This document shows, one piece after another, positions 6,485 through 22,103 of a stretch of 24,185 nucleotides of DNA. Made by a program: the position numbers and the translations under genes. Where the stretch lies: the NCBI GenBank assembly GCA_903921605.1, contig CAIXQV010001044.1, positions 1 through 24,185 of the forward strand, written 5' to 3'. The DNA is from an uncultured Planctomycetaceae bacterium. GTDB taxonomy: Bacteria > Planctomycetota > Planctomycetia > Planctomycetales > Planctomycetaceae. The first letter of the stretch is position 1. Each line of letters starts with the position of its first letter. The notes beneath the pieces are model-generated. The model was not told the DNA's origin. It ran no database searches and saw only the letters and a program-made list of their open reading frames with translations.

Positions 6485-7525
6485 ATGCTTTCTCGGATGA
6501 TCAAGCAACTCTTTGCCGCCGCTTCAGTCGGATCCATAATTCTGGTGTCGGCAATGCCGGTGAATGCGGGCAGGATGTTCAAGGATGAACCATCACGTCC
6601 CCATACTTTTGCGGGATGTCAACCTGCGTGGGGCTATAATCAAACATGCTGGCAGCGATTTCCTGCACTGCCTCCCTGTGATTCCAATGGCAACTGCTAC
6701 GGGCAGCCGTCCGACGGTGCGACGAGCGATGAGCACTCAGGCAGTGTTTATGCTCCGCAACACCACGAGACAGTCGTCGATCCAAGTTTTTCAGGAGTGC
6801 CACAATCTCTGTCGCCAAGCCCGAATTCGCCTCAGATGTTCGTGCCGAATCACGGAGCTGCGAACTCTTCGTCCGAGCTGCATTATGGAGCGCCCATGGG
6901 CAATCCAACAATTCAGGCTCCGCTCCATCAGTACAGTGCGTCTCCGCAAACTCAGTCATTGGAATCACTAGCTCCCTCTTCGGCACAGCCATCCCAACAA
7001 GTGCCTCCAGTGCCGTCAGGGTCGTTGGCTCTGCCTCCGCTGCCTGCTCCGCCGGACGCTGTACCCGCAACGCCCGGACAGACTCGTTTTCAGCCCCAGT
7101 ATGAGCAGTTGATGATAGGAGCCGATGGTCGTTTGACCACAGCCACGGCGATGAATCGCAATCAGGGATACAGTTCCGGGGCCAGCCGTTACGGCCAAAT
7201 CAATCGACCTGTCTCATCACAGCAGATTCCAACGCCATCTGTGCCGAGAAGAACCGGTCCACCAGTTCAATTTGCTGACGCCGTGACAAGCCCCGGAACT
7301 CAACAGAATCGACGCTATACGCAGCCCGTTGGAACCGCCAGCCGGCCAGCCAGCCCCACAAATAACAATCCGTCTGGCACGCTGGCACGACCCGTCTCAA
7401 AAAGTCACAACTCACTTCCCGCGAACTCCTCACGGTATGGAGCGACCCGTCCTGCGGCCAACGTCTCGACGACTCCGGCAACCGTTGTCGAACCGTTGCG
7501 AAAAACTCCAGGAAGTTATCGATAG
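6485..7525 (+). CDS. Proline/serine-rich secreted protein, unknown function
   Basis: A 346-residue product has an N-terminal signal peptide (hydrophobic FAAASVGSIILVSAMPVNA, cleavage near residue 28). A Cys/Trp-rich patch follows (FAGCQPAWGYNQTCWQRF, then ALPPCDSNGNC), with four cysteines that could pair in the envelope. The rest is low-complexity Pro, Ser, Gln and Asn sequence with no recognisable fold. The GY-TCW-RFP type patch recurs in planctomycete exported proteins as far as I recall. AAGGA about 10 nt upstream of the ATG is a usable ribosome binding site. It lies 66 bp after the Gly-rich gene and probably belongs to the same transcription unit as the export lipoprotein. It may be a cell-surface or matrix component; this is inference. 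Confidence 0.75.
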   Translation: MLSRMIKQLFAAASVGSIILVSAMPVNAGRMFKDEPSRPHTFAGCQPAWGYNQTCWQRFPALPPCDSNGNCYGQPSDGATSDEHSGSVYAPQHHETVVDPSFSGVPQSLSPSPNSPQMFVPNHGAANSSSELHYGAPMGNPTIQAPLHQYSASPQTQSLESLAPSSAQPSQQVPPVPSGSLALPPLPAPPDAVPATPGQTRFQPQYEQLMIGADGRLTTATAMNRNQGYSSGASRYGQINRPVSSQQIPTPSVPRRTGPPVQFADAVTSPGTQQNRRYTQPVGTASRPASPTNNNPSGTLARPVSKSHNSLPANSSRYGATRPAANVSTTPATVVEPLRKTPGSYR

Positions 7526-8877: not shown

Positions 8878-11800
8878 AGTGCCGTTCGCATTCGTGTTCT
8901 GCGCGGCGGCGTTTATCGCGTCAATAGTGGGCTCATTTGCTGCCGACGAAACGGGTGATGAAAGCCATCAGAGCACACTGAGTGAAAAGCACGGCTCTGG
9001 GCAGATCCTGGCTGAGAACCTCATTCGAGTTCGTGAGCAGGAACTCCTGCTGCAATCTATTCGCACTGGTGCAGATGGTCGCTTCACGAGTGAATCTCTC
9101 GAAGCGTTGCAGCAGATCTTTGTCTATCCGACCGATGTCTTTCGCATTGATCCAAAGACTTCCAAACCATCCGGCGTGCGGCAGCAGGCACTTCGTCGTT
9201 TAGTGACAGCCAATCACTCCGCGCAGAAGCAGTGGATGCAGTCCATGACTGTCCTCGCAGATTCAAGCTTTCGTCAGGCAATAGAGTCAGGGAACAGGTC
9301 TGCTCTGTCGGAAGTCGCCCGAAATTTTCCGCTCACAGAGTCCGGAACTCGAGCCGCGATTCTGAGTCTGACAGCGGACTACCTGAGTGGACGCCGGCGG
9401 GATGTTGAACAGCGGCTGCGGCAAATGGTGGCCGATTATACAGGCACGATCCACGAAGAGTCCGTCCGCAAGAGGTCGAAGTCATTGTTGGAAACATCGG
9501 GTATCGAACTCACAAGTAGTGCTGACATTATTCCGAATCAGCACGATGTCGCGACTGTCTCTGCAACCAGGCTATCCTTATCAACCGCCGAAGACGCTGG
9601 AACCATTTCGCCTCCGTGGCCCAAAGCCGCGTGGACATGGGCCGAAGACATCTGGAGTTTTCCGGGCCTCCCGCAACCTCAGGCAGGCAACGCGCTGGAG
9701 TCGATGATTCCGGGTTCTGCGCAGTCCTTAAGTGATTTCAGAAACTGGCGTCCCGTACTGTGGGACGACAGCCTGATTATCCGGACTCCTTTTCGCATTG
9801 TTGCTCTCGAAAAATCCACAGGTCGACAGAAGTGGACAATGCCCACACAGACGTTTAATCGTGAGGAGAACATCAACAACTCTCACGAGGGCGATGCTGA
9901 CAACCTGCGATTCAGCGGCGGCACTGGTGATGAACCGGGAATTTTCAATGGACTCGCGGCATTTGGCCTGATGTCCAGCGACGATGAGTTTCTGTATCTG
10001 ATCGATCGCTTCAACTTCTTTTCACCTGCACCCGAGTTGGCAGAGAACGGCCTGCGCCCTCGCGGACGTTTGCGACTTGGGGGACCTCAAACTGATCCAA
10101 CGTCACTAACGGAGGCTCCTCAGGCAACTCGGATTGTCGCGCTTCGCAAAGCCAAGCCGGAGGGTGTGCCAAGCGTGGCGTGGATCGCTGGTGATCAGTC
10201 GAAATTCGGTTACCAGCCAATGCAAGCCGAGCCCTCAATTGAAAGAAGCCTGTTTGGAAGTCCTTCAAACTCAGCAACACCGTCTTTATCGAGTACTGCT
10301 ACGAACAAGGCGAGTCAAACTCAGGCTTCGCAATCGCAGCCATCGGTGACACTGCCAGTGGAGCACGCAGGAGCGAGCTCCGGTAGTAGTCAGGCGGCTC
10401 TGACGTTGAATGGTCATCGCTTTCAGGCTCCTCCCGTGGGCCTCGGTGAACTGCTTTTCGTGCCGTCAATGTTTAGAGACCTGCAATGGCTGAACTGCCT
10501 GCGGCGAGGAACAGGCGACATTATCTGGCAGCAGCCGCTGACGTTTTCTGATGATCTGATGAGCCGCTACCAGGATGGCGCGAATCCTGTTCGCACCACC
10601 TCAGTCTGCATGGTGGTCGGTGACTCAGTCATCTGTTCGCTTCCTTCCGGGATCATGATTGCAGCACGAGCCTTCGACGGTCAACTGCTGTGGGCCACTG
10701 CCATTCGCGACGACGAGTCGCCTCAACAGAATCGAGGCTTTCGCTGGCAGTCAGACGCAGACGAGGATTCGCAGATCGAATCTCCATGCGTCCTGCTGCC
10801 GATGATCGGCGATGGCGTCATCGTCTGCACAGACACTCGATCTCGAAGACTTCATGGGATCAATGCAGAGACTGGCGAGATTATCTGGAGTAGTTCTCGA
10901 AGAGCATTCGGGCCGGGTGATACCGGTGGCAGCCCGGACTATTACGTCGCTGGAATTGCCAATGGTCAGGCGATTCTGGTTGGTGAACGTCACTGCCGAA
11001 GCGTCAGCCTGAAAACAGGAGATCAGAACTGGGTCGTGGCAATCATGCGAACATCCGGCCGCGCGGAATGTCGCGGTCGTCGCTGTCTGATTCCGCAGGC
11101 TGATGGTCATGTGCTTTCCGTTAACACGGACGACGGCACGATCGTTCGGCAGCGACCGTCTTTCCTGCCATCCGATGCGTCACTGCAATTCGGGGCGATT
11201 ACAAGTGATGATGAGTATGTTTACGCATCAACTCCCGTTTCGCTGGCTGTGTTCCCTCGATCGGACTCGCTGCCAAAAACAATCCCGTTGCAGGACCCTA
11301 TAACCCGTGAAACATCTGCTAAGGTATTGACCAGGATCCAGTCGCTGCTGATCAACGGTGACGATCAACTTGCTATCGAAACGCTGAAGTCAGCCGCCAA
11401 CATTGCGACCAGCGAAACAGGCAATACAACAGACGCAGACGACGAAGAACTCAGAGAACCATTTGAGAGATATCTGGGAGAACTCATTCTTCAGGATTGG
11501 GCCGCCAGAATCGTTCAGTCGATGGCGTCGGCAGATGACTCAACCCTTCAATCACTGATCAGTCAGGAACAAGCCGAACTGCTTCCTCGATTGAACCTGA
11601 CTTCAGAACAGCAGGTTCGTGCCGCAGTTCTGGCAGTTCTTGATCACCCTGAGACTTCACTGACTGCGAATGACCTTCAGGAGCTTGCAGAATTTCCCGA
11701 ATGGCGGAAAGTCATCACGATTACTGATGGCTGGAGTGTCAGACCGGACCTGTTGCTTGAGAAATCCGGAACTCCGCCTGTCGTCGAAATCGGCGACACG

Positions 11801-18747: not shown

Positions 18748-18828
18748 CATAAGGCTCTGCCTATTGATCTATCACTTGCTTTCAGGTCGTTTCACGCACA
18801 TCATTTGGCGACGAACTGGAGAAACTTG

Positions 18829-20226
18829 ATGAAGTCGCAGCAAGTGAATTTCGGACGTCGGAAATGTATCCGCGTGGGAACATCCGCATGGTTTGCTACC
18901 AGTCTTGGGCAAATCCTGCAGAGCAGGGCGGCTAACGCGCAGGCGGCTGGATCTGTGGTCTCAAAGTCATCGGACTCCAACGCTTCCTTTGGCCGCGCTA
19001 AGAGGATCATCTATCTATATTTAAGCGGTGGACCTTCGCAGTACGAAACATTTGATCCGAAGCCTGATGCGCCCGCGGAGATCCGAGGAAGCTTCAAACC
19101 GATCTCATCAAATGTGCCCGGTATCAACTTATGTGAACTGTTGCCTCGAACGTCCACCATCGCCGATCGACTGGCTATCGTTCGATCTTTTGCCACCGAT
19201 GACCCAAATCACGAATCAGGCGGATACTGGGTAAACACCGGGCATAAGTATGTCGGCCCCGACATGCGAGCACTCGCGCCAAGCGACTGGCCGACGCTGG
19301 CTTCAATCGTGAAAATGCTCCGCCCGACCGACGGCGGACCATTTAGTTCAGTGATGTTGCCAGAACCAATCGTCGCTAATCCCAACGTTTTTCTTCCAGG
19401 ACAGAATGCCGGATTCCTTGGCCGCCGCTGGGATCCGGAGATTCTTCGCTGCGATCCGTCTGCGGTTGATTTCAACATCGACAGTCTCTCACTGCCGGAA
19501 CAAATAACAGAGAGCCGACTGGGATCTCGCAAAGCACTGCTCAGTGAATTCGCAGCACTACAACCTGTTCGCGCACGGGCCATCGACGAATATGAACAAG
19601 TGCGGCAGGAGGCCATGGGACTGCTGATCTCGGGAACTGCCAAAGGAGCGTTTGCGATTGATCAGGAATCCGCGACTGTGCGCGACCGATATGGTCGCGG
19701 CAAGTGGGGCCAGTCTGTCCTGTTGGCTCGTCGTTTGATCGAAGCCGACGTCCGCATGGTGTTTGTCAACTGGCCGCGAGAACCCGGTGATCTGAGCGCT
19801 CCGAATCCTCTGTGGGACACGCATGCTCACAATGATGTCCGCATGAAGTCTGTGCTATGTCCTCAGTTCGACCAGGGTTTCACCGCGTTGATTGAAGACC
19901 TGGAAGCTCGCGGGCTGCTGGAGGAAACTCTAATCGTCGCTGTTGGTGAGATGGGGCGAACACCAAAGTTCAACGCCAGCGGAGGCCGCGATCACTGGGG
20001 CAACGTCTTTAGCTTCGTCCTTGCCGGTGCCGGAATCCGCGCAGGACAGGTCTACGGAGCCAGTGACCGAGACGGTGCTTATCCGGCTCACGATCGAGTC
20101 ACCCCGCCCGAACTGACCGCCACAATTCTGCACCTGCTGGGAATCAGCCATGAGGCGACTTTCCCTGATCGCACCGGTCGCCCTCTGCGAGTCGTTGAGG
20201 GAGCACCGATCACGGCGTTGATCTGA
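18829..20226 (+). CDS. DUF1501 domain-containing protein with Tat-like signal
   Basis: This is a complete member (465 aa) of the DUF1501 family, with alkaline phosphatase/sulfatase-like fold. The N-terminus holds a twin-arginine type signal (GRRKCIRVG at 9-17, then WFATSLGQIL), although the usual S/T-RR-x-F-L-K is altered. The family block LSGGPSQYETFDPKP follows at about 65-79. Later landmarks are DPNHESGGYWVNTGHKY, WDTHAHNDVRMK, and EMGRTPKFNASGGRDHWG, whose His and Asp residues are probable metal ligands, then TATILHLLGI near the end. GGAGA about 7 nt upstream supports the ATG at 18829 over the TTG at 18805. It is a distant relative of the partial gene at the start of the window. No DUF1549/DUF1553 partner is adjacent. 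The substrate is unknown. Confidence 0.93.
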   Translation: MKSQQVNFGRRKCIRVGTSAWFATSLGQILQSRAANAQAAGSVVSKSSDSNASFGRAKRIIYLYLSGGPSQYETFDPKPDAPAEIRGSFKPISSNVPGINLCELLPRTSTIADRLAIVRSFATDDPNHESGGYWVNTGHKYVGPDMRALAPSDWPTLASIVKMLRPTDGGPFSSVMLPEPIVANPNVFLPGQNAGFLGRRWDPEILRCDPSAVDFNIDSLSLPEQITESRLGSRKALLSEFAALQPVRARAIDEYEQVRQEAMGLLISGTAKGAFAIDQESATVRDRYGRGKWGQSVLLARRLIEADVRMVFVNWPREPGDLSAPNPLWDTHAHNDVRMKSVLCPQFDQGFTALIEDLEARGLLEETLIVAVGEMGRTPKFNASGGRDHWGNVFSFVLAGAGIRAGQVYGASDRDGAYPAHDRVTPPELTATILHLLGISHEATFPDRTGRPLRVVEGAPITALI

Positions 20227-20713: not shown

Positions 20714-20741
20714 GTATAAGTCAATTGGACGGGAGATCGGT

Positions 20742-22103
20742 GTGTCATCAATCACAGAAACAGTTCGAGACAAATACGCGGCTGTGGCACTTAGCGGACT
20801 GTCCAATAACGACACCGCAGTAAAATCCATTGCGGCGGCTTTTGGATACTCTATCGAAGAACTGGTTTCGTTGCCGTCTGAAGCCAACATGGGATTGTCG
20901 TGCGGCAACCCGGTTGCGATGGCCGCATTAAAGCTGGGCGAAGTTGTTGTCGATCTAGGTTGCGGTGGCGGCCTGGATGTCCTGCTGGCATCCCGGCTTG
21001 TGGGGCCAACCGGAAAGGCGATTGGCATCGATATGACCGCCGAGATGCTGGAGCGGTCTCGAGCGGGTGCTGCAAAAGTCAGCGCGACGAATGTCGAGTT
21101 TTATCAGGCTCAGATCGATCAGCTTCCTCTTCCTGATGCCTCCGTCGACTGCATTCTGAGCAATTGCGTGATCAACCTCGCGGCGGATAAGCCAGCCGTG
21201 TTTCGCGAGATGCTGCGAGTCCTCAGGCCGGGTGGTCGAATTTCGATCAGCGACATCGCGTTGAAGCAACCGCTGCCGCAGGATGTGGCCAGCAGTCTCC
21301 AGGCCTATGTTGGCTGCATCGCCGGAGCTATGATGATCTCTGAATATGATCGACTGCTCAATGAAGCGGGGTTCGAAGCGGTCGTCGTGGCCGATACCGG
21401 AGCCGATTTGAACGTGTATGCTCAAGCCAGTTCTTCCGGATGCTGCTCGCCGGAATCCGCTGCATCCTGCTGTGCTCCAGCATCGGGGACATCAGGTGCA
21501 TCATCGGCAACGGCCGAAACAGGCGGCTCCGGAAGCACGGTCCATGACGGCCTGGAACAGATAATGCGGCAGTTTGATGTGAACGCGTATGCCGCCAGCG
21601 TTCGAGTCTTCGCAACCCGTGGTGCACAGAGTGTGACGCCACCGCACTCTGTAACGCCCGTTTCGGACGTCCCATATTCTTCTTCCATGATTTCTCCACG
21701 GAAAGTGACTGCGATGAAAACAATTCAGATCTATGACCGCCCGATGTGTTGTTCAACCGGAATTTGTGGACCGAGCGTCGATCCCGTGTTGCCTCGCTTT
21801 GCTGCCGATCTGGACACGATGAAGAACGCTGGTCACACCGTACAGCGATACAACCTGTCACAGCAGCCTCAGGCGTTTATCGACAACAAAGAGATCCACG
21901 CGCTGATCTCCACGAAAGGCACCGATGTGCTGCCGGTCGTTGTTGTCGATGGCCACGTTGTCAGCAAGGGCCTGTATCCATCGATGGAAATGCTTCAGAT
22001 GTGGACTGCGGGCCGCGTGACTGCTGCAGCCGCGTCTGTAGCGACGTTGTCACTGCCAATCGCCGATCAGGGCTGCTGTAGCGGTTCGACGGGATGTTGC
22101 TGA
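20742..22103 (+). CDS. arsM-arsD: ArsM-ArsD fusion: As(III) S-adenosylmethionine methyltransferase joined to arsenite metallochaperone
   Basis: One uninterrupted 453-codon frame encodes two arsenic proteins. Residues 1 to about 297 are ArsM: the SAM site [11 protein letters not shown] (69-79) and the three As(III)-binding cysteines C54 (LSCGNP), C142 (LSNCVINL) and C192 (YVGCIAGA), then CC pairs and the family's closing [13 protein letters not shown] block. Residues 325-453 are ArsD, starting at an internal ATG (21714), with C336/C337/C342 matching C12/C13/C18 of E. coli ArsD and tail pairs C445/C446 and C452/C453. The joining 27 residues look like translated intergenic DNA, and GGAAAG lies about 9 nt before the internal ATG, so ArsD may also be made alone. 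GTG start with GGGAGA upstream. ArsM methylates arsenite; ArsD hands it to ArsA, encoded next. Confidence 0.94.

Follow-up and report, generated by a model that had tools for sequence, protein, structure and literature searches.

The window, the whole stretch of 24,185 nucleotides analysed here, carries a reading frame in which an arsM gene for an arsenite methyltransferase runs into an arsD gene without a stop. ArsM methylates As(III) with SAM, and ArsD is a chaperone that passes As(III) to ArsA. Methylation of arsenic and its chaperoned efflux are usually viewed as competing; here a single gene of a widespread phylum ties them together. The locus raises the question of whether such a gene makes one protein or two, and how, when and how often the two halves were joined.

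Table 1. Positions in the window of the fused gene, its parts and its neighbours
Feature	Coordinates	Strand	Evidence
arsR, ArsR/SmtB metalloregulator, 111 aa	20335..20670	+	HTH_5; HTH_metalloreg 73.5 bits (cut-off 55)
Shine-Dalgarno-like GGGAG preceding the GTG start	20731..20735	+	sequence
Fused arsM-arsD frame, 453 aa	20742..22103	+	open reading frame, GTG start
ArsM half, residues 1-293, with low-confidence CC tail (~228-272) and family C-terminus	20742..21620	+	profiles, alignment, model
Hypervariable linker (residues 294-324), putatively the old leader of arsD	21621..21713	+	alignment, locus comparison
GGAAAG, weak Shine-Dalgarno-like site, -5.4 kcal/mol against an assumed anti-SD	21700..21705	+	pairing energy
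Internal ATG (M325), ArsD start	21714..21716	+	ATG in 27/31 fused genes
ArsD half (residues 325-453) with C336/C337/C342 and, in the tail, two CC pairs	21714..22103	+	profiles, structure alignment
arsA, arsenite-pump ATPase, 596 aa	22278..24068	+	TIGR04291 785.3 bits (cut-off 650)

The frame is open for 453 codons and stands between arsR and arsA, with arsA adjoining the ArsD half. The window stops shortly 3′ of arsA, and a DUF1501 protein (301 bits) is encoded 5′ of arsR at 18805-20226. Residues 2-219 match the NCBIfam arsenite methyltransferase PRK11873 at 274.2 bits, above the curated cut-off of 263. In an alignment to solved structures C54, C142 and C192 fall on the ArsM arsenite cysteines C72, C174 and C224 of the algal enzyme, and the column of its fourth cysteine, C44, holds no cysteine in our protein (algal numbering from passages of PMC5552862, where ArsM sequences having at least three of the four cysteines were admitted). 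Residues 325-453 match the whole Pfam PF06953 profile (positions 1-123 of 123; 150.6 bits, cut-off 27), and residues 326-422 match NCBIfam chaperon_ArsD NF033727 (123.5 bits, cut-off 90). C336, C337 and C342, which we take to be the ArsD cysteine triad C12/C13/C18, align with the cysteines of the MCCSTGVC motif in the ArsD structure 3mwh. The open frame, the family-profile matches and the cysteine alignment bear out an earlier, sequence-only reading of the locus as a single frame joining a complete ArsM to a complete ArsD.

The structure model of the joint protein is weak: its mean pLDDT is 64.5, its pTM 0.49, and confidence is low at residues 1-20, 29-36, 44-54, 228-272, 297-322 (pLDDT below 50), 336-344 and 425-453, and we therefore make no claim about how the ArsM and ArsD domains face each other. 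A Foldseek search with this model returned ArsM and other methyltransferases among its best 50 matches, and nothing on domain arrangement. The full-length product would unite ArsM-type and ArsD-type As(III) sites, and might channel As(III) between them.

Open frames of at least 400 aa occur in 9 of the 53 ArsD-bearing genomes in the order of the L001 genome (170 genomes searched) and in 16 of the 73 genomes with ArsD over cut-off in the order of the L005 genome (396 searched); all 25 are ArsM-ArsD. Every place found in the first search entered our classification of planctomycete arsD loci, as did 64 of the 75 places over cut-off in the second; those of G911, G677, G583, G787, G737, G654, G634, G765 and G828 and the second places of G574 and G754 were left out. 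In another search G167 and G206, both over cut-off, were read outside the classification and places under cut-off were omitted. Removing ten recurring genome-contig loci and the fragments L206 and L207 from the 139 loci classified leaves 127, which make up an ArsD+ArsA tree. Thirty-one of these are fused, 6 have arsM pieces, 89 have arsD with no arsM found upstream and one has adjacent separate genes, 'unfused' meaning that no arsM lies in the available upstream DNA, up to about 2.6 kb (less than 900 bases for L195). None of 2106 matching plasmid records had one place covering 80% of the query. The single other phylum searched for ArsD, that of G922 (the L055 genome, titled Pseudomonas), likewise yielded no fusion: its 398 genomes hold nine ArsD matches over cut-off with a longest frame of 268 aa, and one place under cut-off with a frame of 306 aa.

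The linker is hypervariable across 22 aligned relatives, and its origin can be read from unfused loci. The leader of an unfused arsD carries AAAGGAGAAAACG ahead of the ATG (L090), and in fused genes such as L018 sequence of this type is translated as Lys-Glu-Lys-Thr ahead of the internal Met. The presence of the same type of sequence in both positions indicates that the linker includes the old arsD leader. A source in former intergenic DNA, as first proposed from the window, is thereby upheld, with arsD start signals persisting in the linker of most fused genes.

We assessed these signals by the pairing energy of the 15 bases upstream of each ATG with an assumed anti-Shine-Dalgarno sequence, which may differ in these genomes. 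The 27 internal ATGs of fused genes average -6.3, with 22 of 27 at or below -4, compared with a mean of -2.2 and 17.8% for 264 other in-frame ATGs of the same genes (Mann-Whitney p = 2e-10, kinship ignored). The starts of 92 unfused arsD genes also average -6.3, with 84% at or below -4 (p = 0.49 against the fused internal ATGs). An AGGA, GGAG or GAGG motif lies 5-16 bases 5′ of 19 of the 27 internal ATGs and of 12 of 230 control ATGs. The pooled sum for the 27 genes was reached by 0 of 400 synonymous recodings and by 0 of 400 shuffles of linker codon order, and the outcome was the same (0 of 400) for 16 representatives hand-chosen once the energies were known; the signal is strong only when pooled, a per-gene synonymous test of the first 19 sequences falling below 0.05 in just one. 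Most fused copies examined thus seem, from their start signals, able to make ArsD alone, with ribosomes presumably starting at the internal ATG.

Site strength differs greatly among lineages that retain the ATG, from about -0.4 to -9.5 kcal/mol, and is low in the clade of the window: -5.4 in the window itself, which has no AGGA or other canonical motif, -2.3 in L001 and L186, -3.8 in L175 and -0.4 in L003. The weakness of the site in this clade makes free ArsD less certain for the window than for the family. The original suggestion of an internal ArsD start behind a ribosome site, with free ArsD as a plausible product, therefore holds at the level of the family and only weakly for the gene on which it was made. 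The internal ATG is missing from 4 of the 31 fused genes (L232, L249, L252 and L272). In L272 and L249 (the same genes as L012 and L016) a GTG or TTG stands two codons past the absent ATG.

The four genes without the ATG, the weak site in the window's clade and purifying selection on the ArsM half (dN/dS 0.05-0.24 in 6 of 6 pairs) would all suit an obligate fusion, in which the 453-aa protein alone is made, the tethered ArsD feeds arsenite to ArsM and the internal start signals are leftovers. Leftovers should decay with the linker, yet the internal sites equal those of unfused arsD genes in strength and exceed the pooled synonymous null, and ArsD outlives the wreckage of ArsM, as described below. 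We consider an obligate fusion unlikely. The Lys-Glu ahead of the internal ATG could nevertheless serve the protein itself.

Many planctomycete operons have the order arsR-arsD-arsA without arsM, and in genome G378 one such operon (L100) coexists with a fused copy (L089). The ArsD+ArsA tree was built quickly and has several weak nodes; a 57-row clade in it (support 85) mixes 28 fused with 29 unfused loci, and the fused loci outside this clade are L193 (represented by 18% of the columns only), L232 and L252. Remnants of arsM lie directly 5′ of an intact arsD in six loci: L162 has about 38 N-terminal ArsM residues and then the tail, L165, L171 and L180 retain the tail alone, and L169 and L230 retain two arsM pieces each. 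At L223 arsR is followed by a linker resembling that of its fused kin, and arsM is gone. We searched for scars by requiring a score 8 points above the highest among 12 shuffles, a margin set for loci outside the clade. The same six loci, and no others among the 29 unfused loci inside the clade, pass this margin, leaving 23 in which no clear arsM scar was found; outside the clade 2 of 66 pass (L204 and L265), which we take to be chance. L158 (score 51 against 45) resembles a decayed ArsM tail immediately before arsD, and is not counted because it scores below L204 and L265. The remnants indicate that some lineages lost the ArsM half after fusion. Were the fused state ancestral to the 57-row clade, about 14 separate losses of ArsM would be implied, a number that depends on weak nodes. 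At L269 the genes are separate: arsR and arsM, the latter closed by a stop, are followed after a short gap by arsD and arsA, with AGGAG before arsD; this locus is possibly an unfused intermediate or an independent arrangement.

The ArsD cysteine motif is undamaged in all 127 classified loci. ArsD dN/dS is 0.02-0.24 in 13 of 15 pairs that include at least one unfused locus (5 of the 13 are rough, with dS above 1, and the other two give no value because dS is saturated). Fused-unfused pairs also span time preceding the loss; values for the five pairs of two unfused loci are 0.03-0.24. These ratios indicate that ArsD stays under purifying selection in unfused loci. Among 19 genomes searched for ArsM, covering 19 of the 29 unfused loci, a further ArsM was found in G456, G531 and G534 (59-61% identity) and a match of 38% in G494; the remaining 15 gave weak partial methyltransferase matches only, so that methylation seems to have been lost from them if the genomes are complete.

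Whether the halves were joined once or many times can be judged from the two trees. The ArsM tree gathers all of its 40 fused rows into a single 44-row clade (support 100/98), whose titles are from Planctomycetaceae and Pirellulaceae. The four unfused rows inside it (L019, L020, L030 and L043), which raise the changes needed by the fused label to five, end 2 to about 32 residues past the ArsM C-terminus, and no arsD or arsA was found in their flanking DNA examined. One of them, L019 (5638-6930), ends in GGCCGGQACC, which resembles an ArsD tail; this may suggest loss of an ArsD half, but 2 of 61 other ArsM-only loci (L031 and L068) also end in two CC pairs. The same label needs 14 changes on the ArsD+ArsA tree. 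Both counts, the 23 unfused loci with no clear scar and the mixed ancestry of L232 and L252, which have a common-type ArsM, an ArsD+ArsA from a clade in which 37 of 39 rows are unfused and no internal Met, would fit many independent fusions, with most unfused arsD genes inside the 57-row clade never having had arsM. We consider this improbable. ArsM distances agree with ArsD+ArsA distances across 29 fused loci (Spearman 0.62, with 0 of 200 permutations as high; L193 and L010, which have few columns, were omitted), and the agreement rises to 0.74 without L232 and L252, indicating that, for the most part, the two halves have long moved as a unit. Loss is also demonstrated by the six unfused loci of the 57-row clade with clear scars, and is suggested by the fused-type linker of L223. 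L232 and L252 may themselves stem from second fusions, or their downstream half may have been replaced.

The resemblance of the linker to non-coding DNA had been taken as a sign of a young fusion, formed by recent loss of a stop in this lineage. The breadth of the fusion leaves this idea with almost no credence. In a protein search the best 120 of 7999 scored proteins, down to 56% identity, all contain both the methyltransferase domain and PF06953, so that the joined architecture recurs among planctomycete proteins; matches at 57-62% identity within this set are entered under the names Planctellipticum, Novipirellula, Bremerella, Gimesia, Aureliella and Aporhodopirellula. A scan of genome contigs gave 80 retained loci, 18 of which match over both halves. 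All 18 have arsM and then arsD on the same strand, 17 with arsR before and 17 with arsA after. Together with the single ArsM clade that holds every fused row, these matches led us to reject a young fusion. Nor do all close relatives have separate arsM and arsD genes, the arrangement that would have spoken against the joined gene: L001 and L002 share the arrangement found in the window and L175 is also fused, whereas one close relative, L184, is not.

Much of the data is metagenomic and the database lists ArsD alone (P0123) where the DNA of L175 has an open fused frame, but the same frame recurs in many contigs from several sources, some of them named strains, and an assembly or annotation artefact is exceedingly improbable. 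Protein clusters P0002-P0004 (453-456 aa, 97-99% identity) have 11, 2 and 46 members from several sources. P0123, a 129-aa ArsD, is letter for letter the ArsD half of the frame in L175 (G403); some separate ArsD database entries are start-site choices.

Several loci show features of their own. Against L001 and L002, the window alone differs at 12.9% of linker sites and 9.5% of arsD sites (21621-22103) and at just 1-2% of sites in arsR, arsM and N-terminal arsA, a concentration that makes the linker and arsD block look recombined inside the fused gene. The record of L002 is titled Candidatus Kuenenia, and a contig of equal length (49243 bp) with the same fused gene also occurs in G503, from the order of the L001 genome; the title possibly reflects misbinning or misnaming. 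The arsD half of L017 is split over two frames at 7070-7074, by a frameshift or an assembly error. L005 encodes an ACR3 arsenite pump (9288-10355, minus strand; 370 bits) facing arsA, and a search with this protein of L001-L018 and the window found a second copy in L009 only (91% identical).

Taken together, the sequence data lead us to favour, as the likely explanation, an old fusion with two products, ArsM-ArsD and free ArsD, whose ArsM half has been lost in several lineages. In an arsR-arsD-arsA operon, an arsM gene would have come to sit behind arsR, in frame with the arsD that follows, and lost its stop, so that translation ran on across the leader and into arsD. This leader would in most lineages have retained its Shine-Dalgarno site and the arsD ATG, giving one gene with two products. 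The full-length protein could bind and methylate As(III), and free ArsD could pass As(III) to ArsA, the product of the next gene, for efflux; both would then be active and would share As(III) between them. With a start of its own, ArsD is unharmed when the ArsM half is destroyed, and two products make the fusion reversible; the ArsM half would accordingly have been wrecked in several lineages with ArsD kept. More tentatively, the gene might act as a translational splitter, in which read-through ArsM-ArsD serves methylation, free ArsD serves ArsA-driven efflux, the strength of the internal site sets the ratio and the kept start lets lineages drop methylation and keep efflux.

The fusion seems to have preserved the start of its second gene for long and to have come apart later on more than one occasion; the remains of intermediate stages can still be seen in sequenced genomes. 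We found no description of an ArsM-ArsD fusion in the titles and abstract openings of the literature searched, mostly without subscription papers. The sequence-only reading, which knew of no description of the fusion, is matched in this respect by the literature searched; the proteins themselves are already in public databases, named arsenite methyltransferase or ArsD. This is a warning for annotation, as each name conceals half of the protein.

Fusions of other ars genes provide the nearest comparisons. ArsR-M of Brevundimonas sp. M20, bifunctional by assay, likewise joins an arsenite methyltransferase to another ars protein (passages of PMC10190100), but its partner is the regulator ArsR, and 'arsD' is absent from the main text of that paper. 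ArsD is joined to another ars protein in the ArsN-ArsD fusion (Chauhan 2009, as cited in PMC6205960, which also gives ArsN fused to ArsC), where the partner, ArsN, is no methyltransferase and the passages concerned mention no internal start. The ArsR-ArsC, Acr3-ArsC and AqpS-ArsC fusions reported in passages of the same source also place ars genes in one frame, with other partners and other chemistry. Within the planctomycetes, the arsR-arsD-arsA operons L086, L088 and L100 have the order of the fused loci minus arsM and the same type of arsD start signal, and we propose that they represent the pre-fusion state. The closest parallel for two products is the endolysin CTP1L, in which an internal in-frame start has been shown experimentally to give a free C-terminal domain beside the full-length protein (PMC4777826), a pair of products that the fused arsM-arsD gene is predicted from sequence to make. 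The CTP1L products form a complex, whereas the internal start of arsM-arsD is that of a once separate gene.
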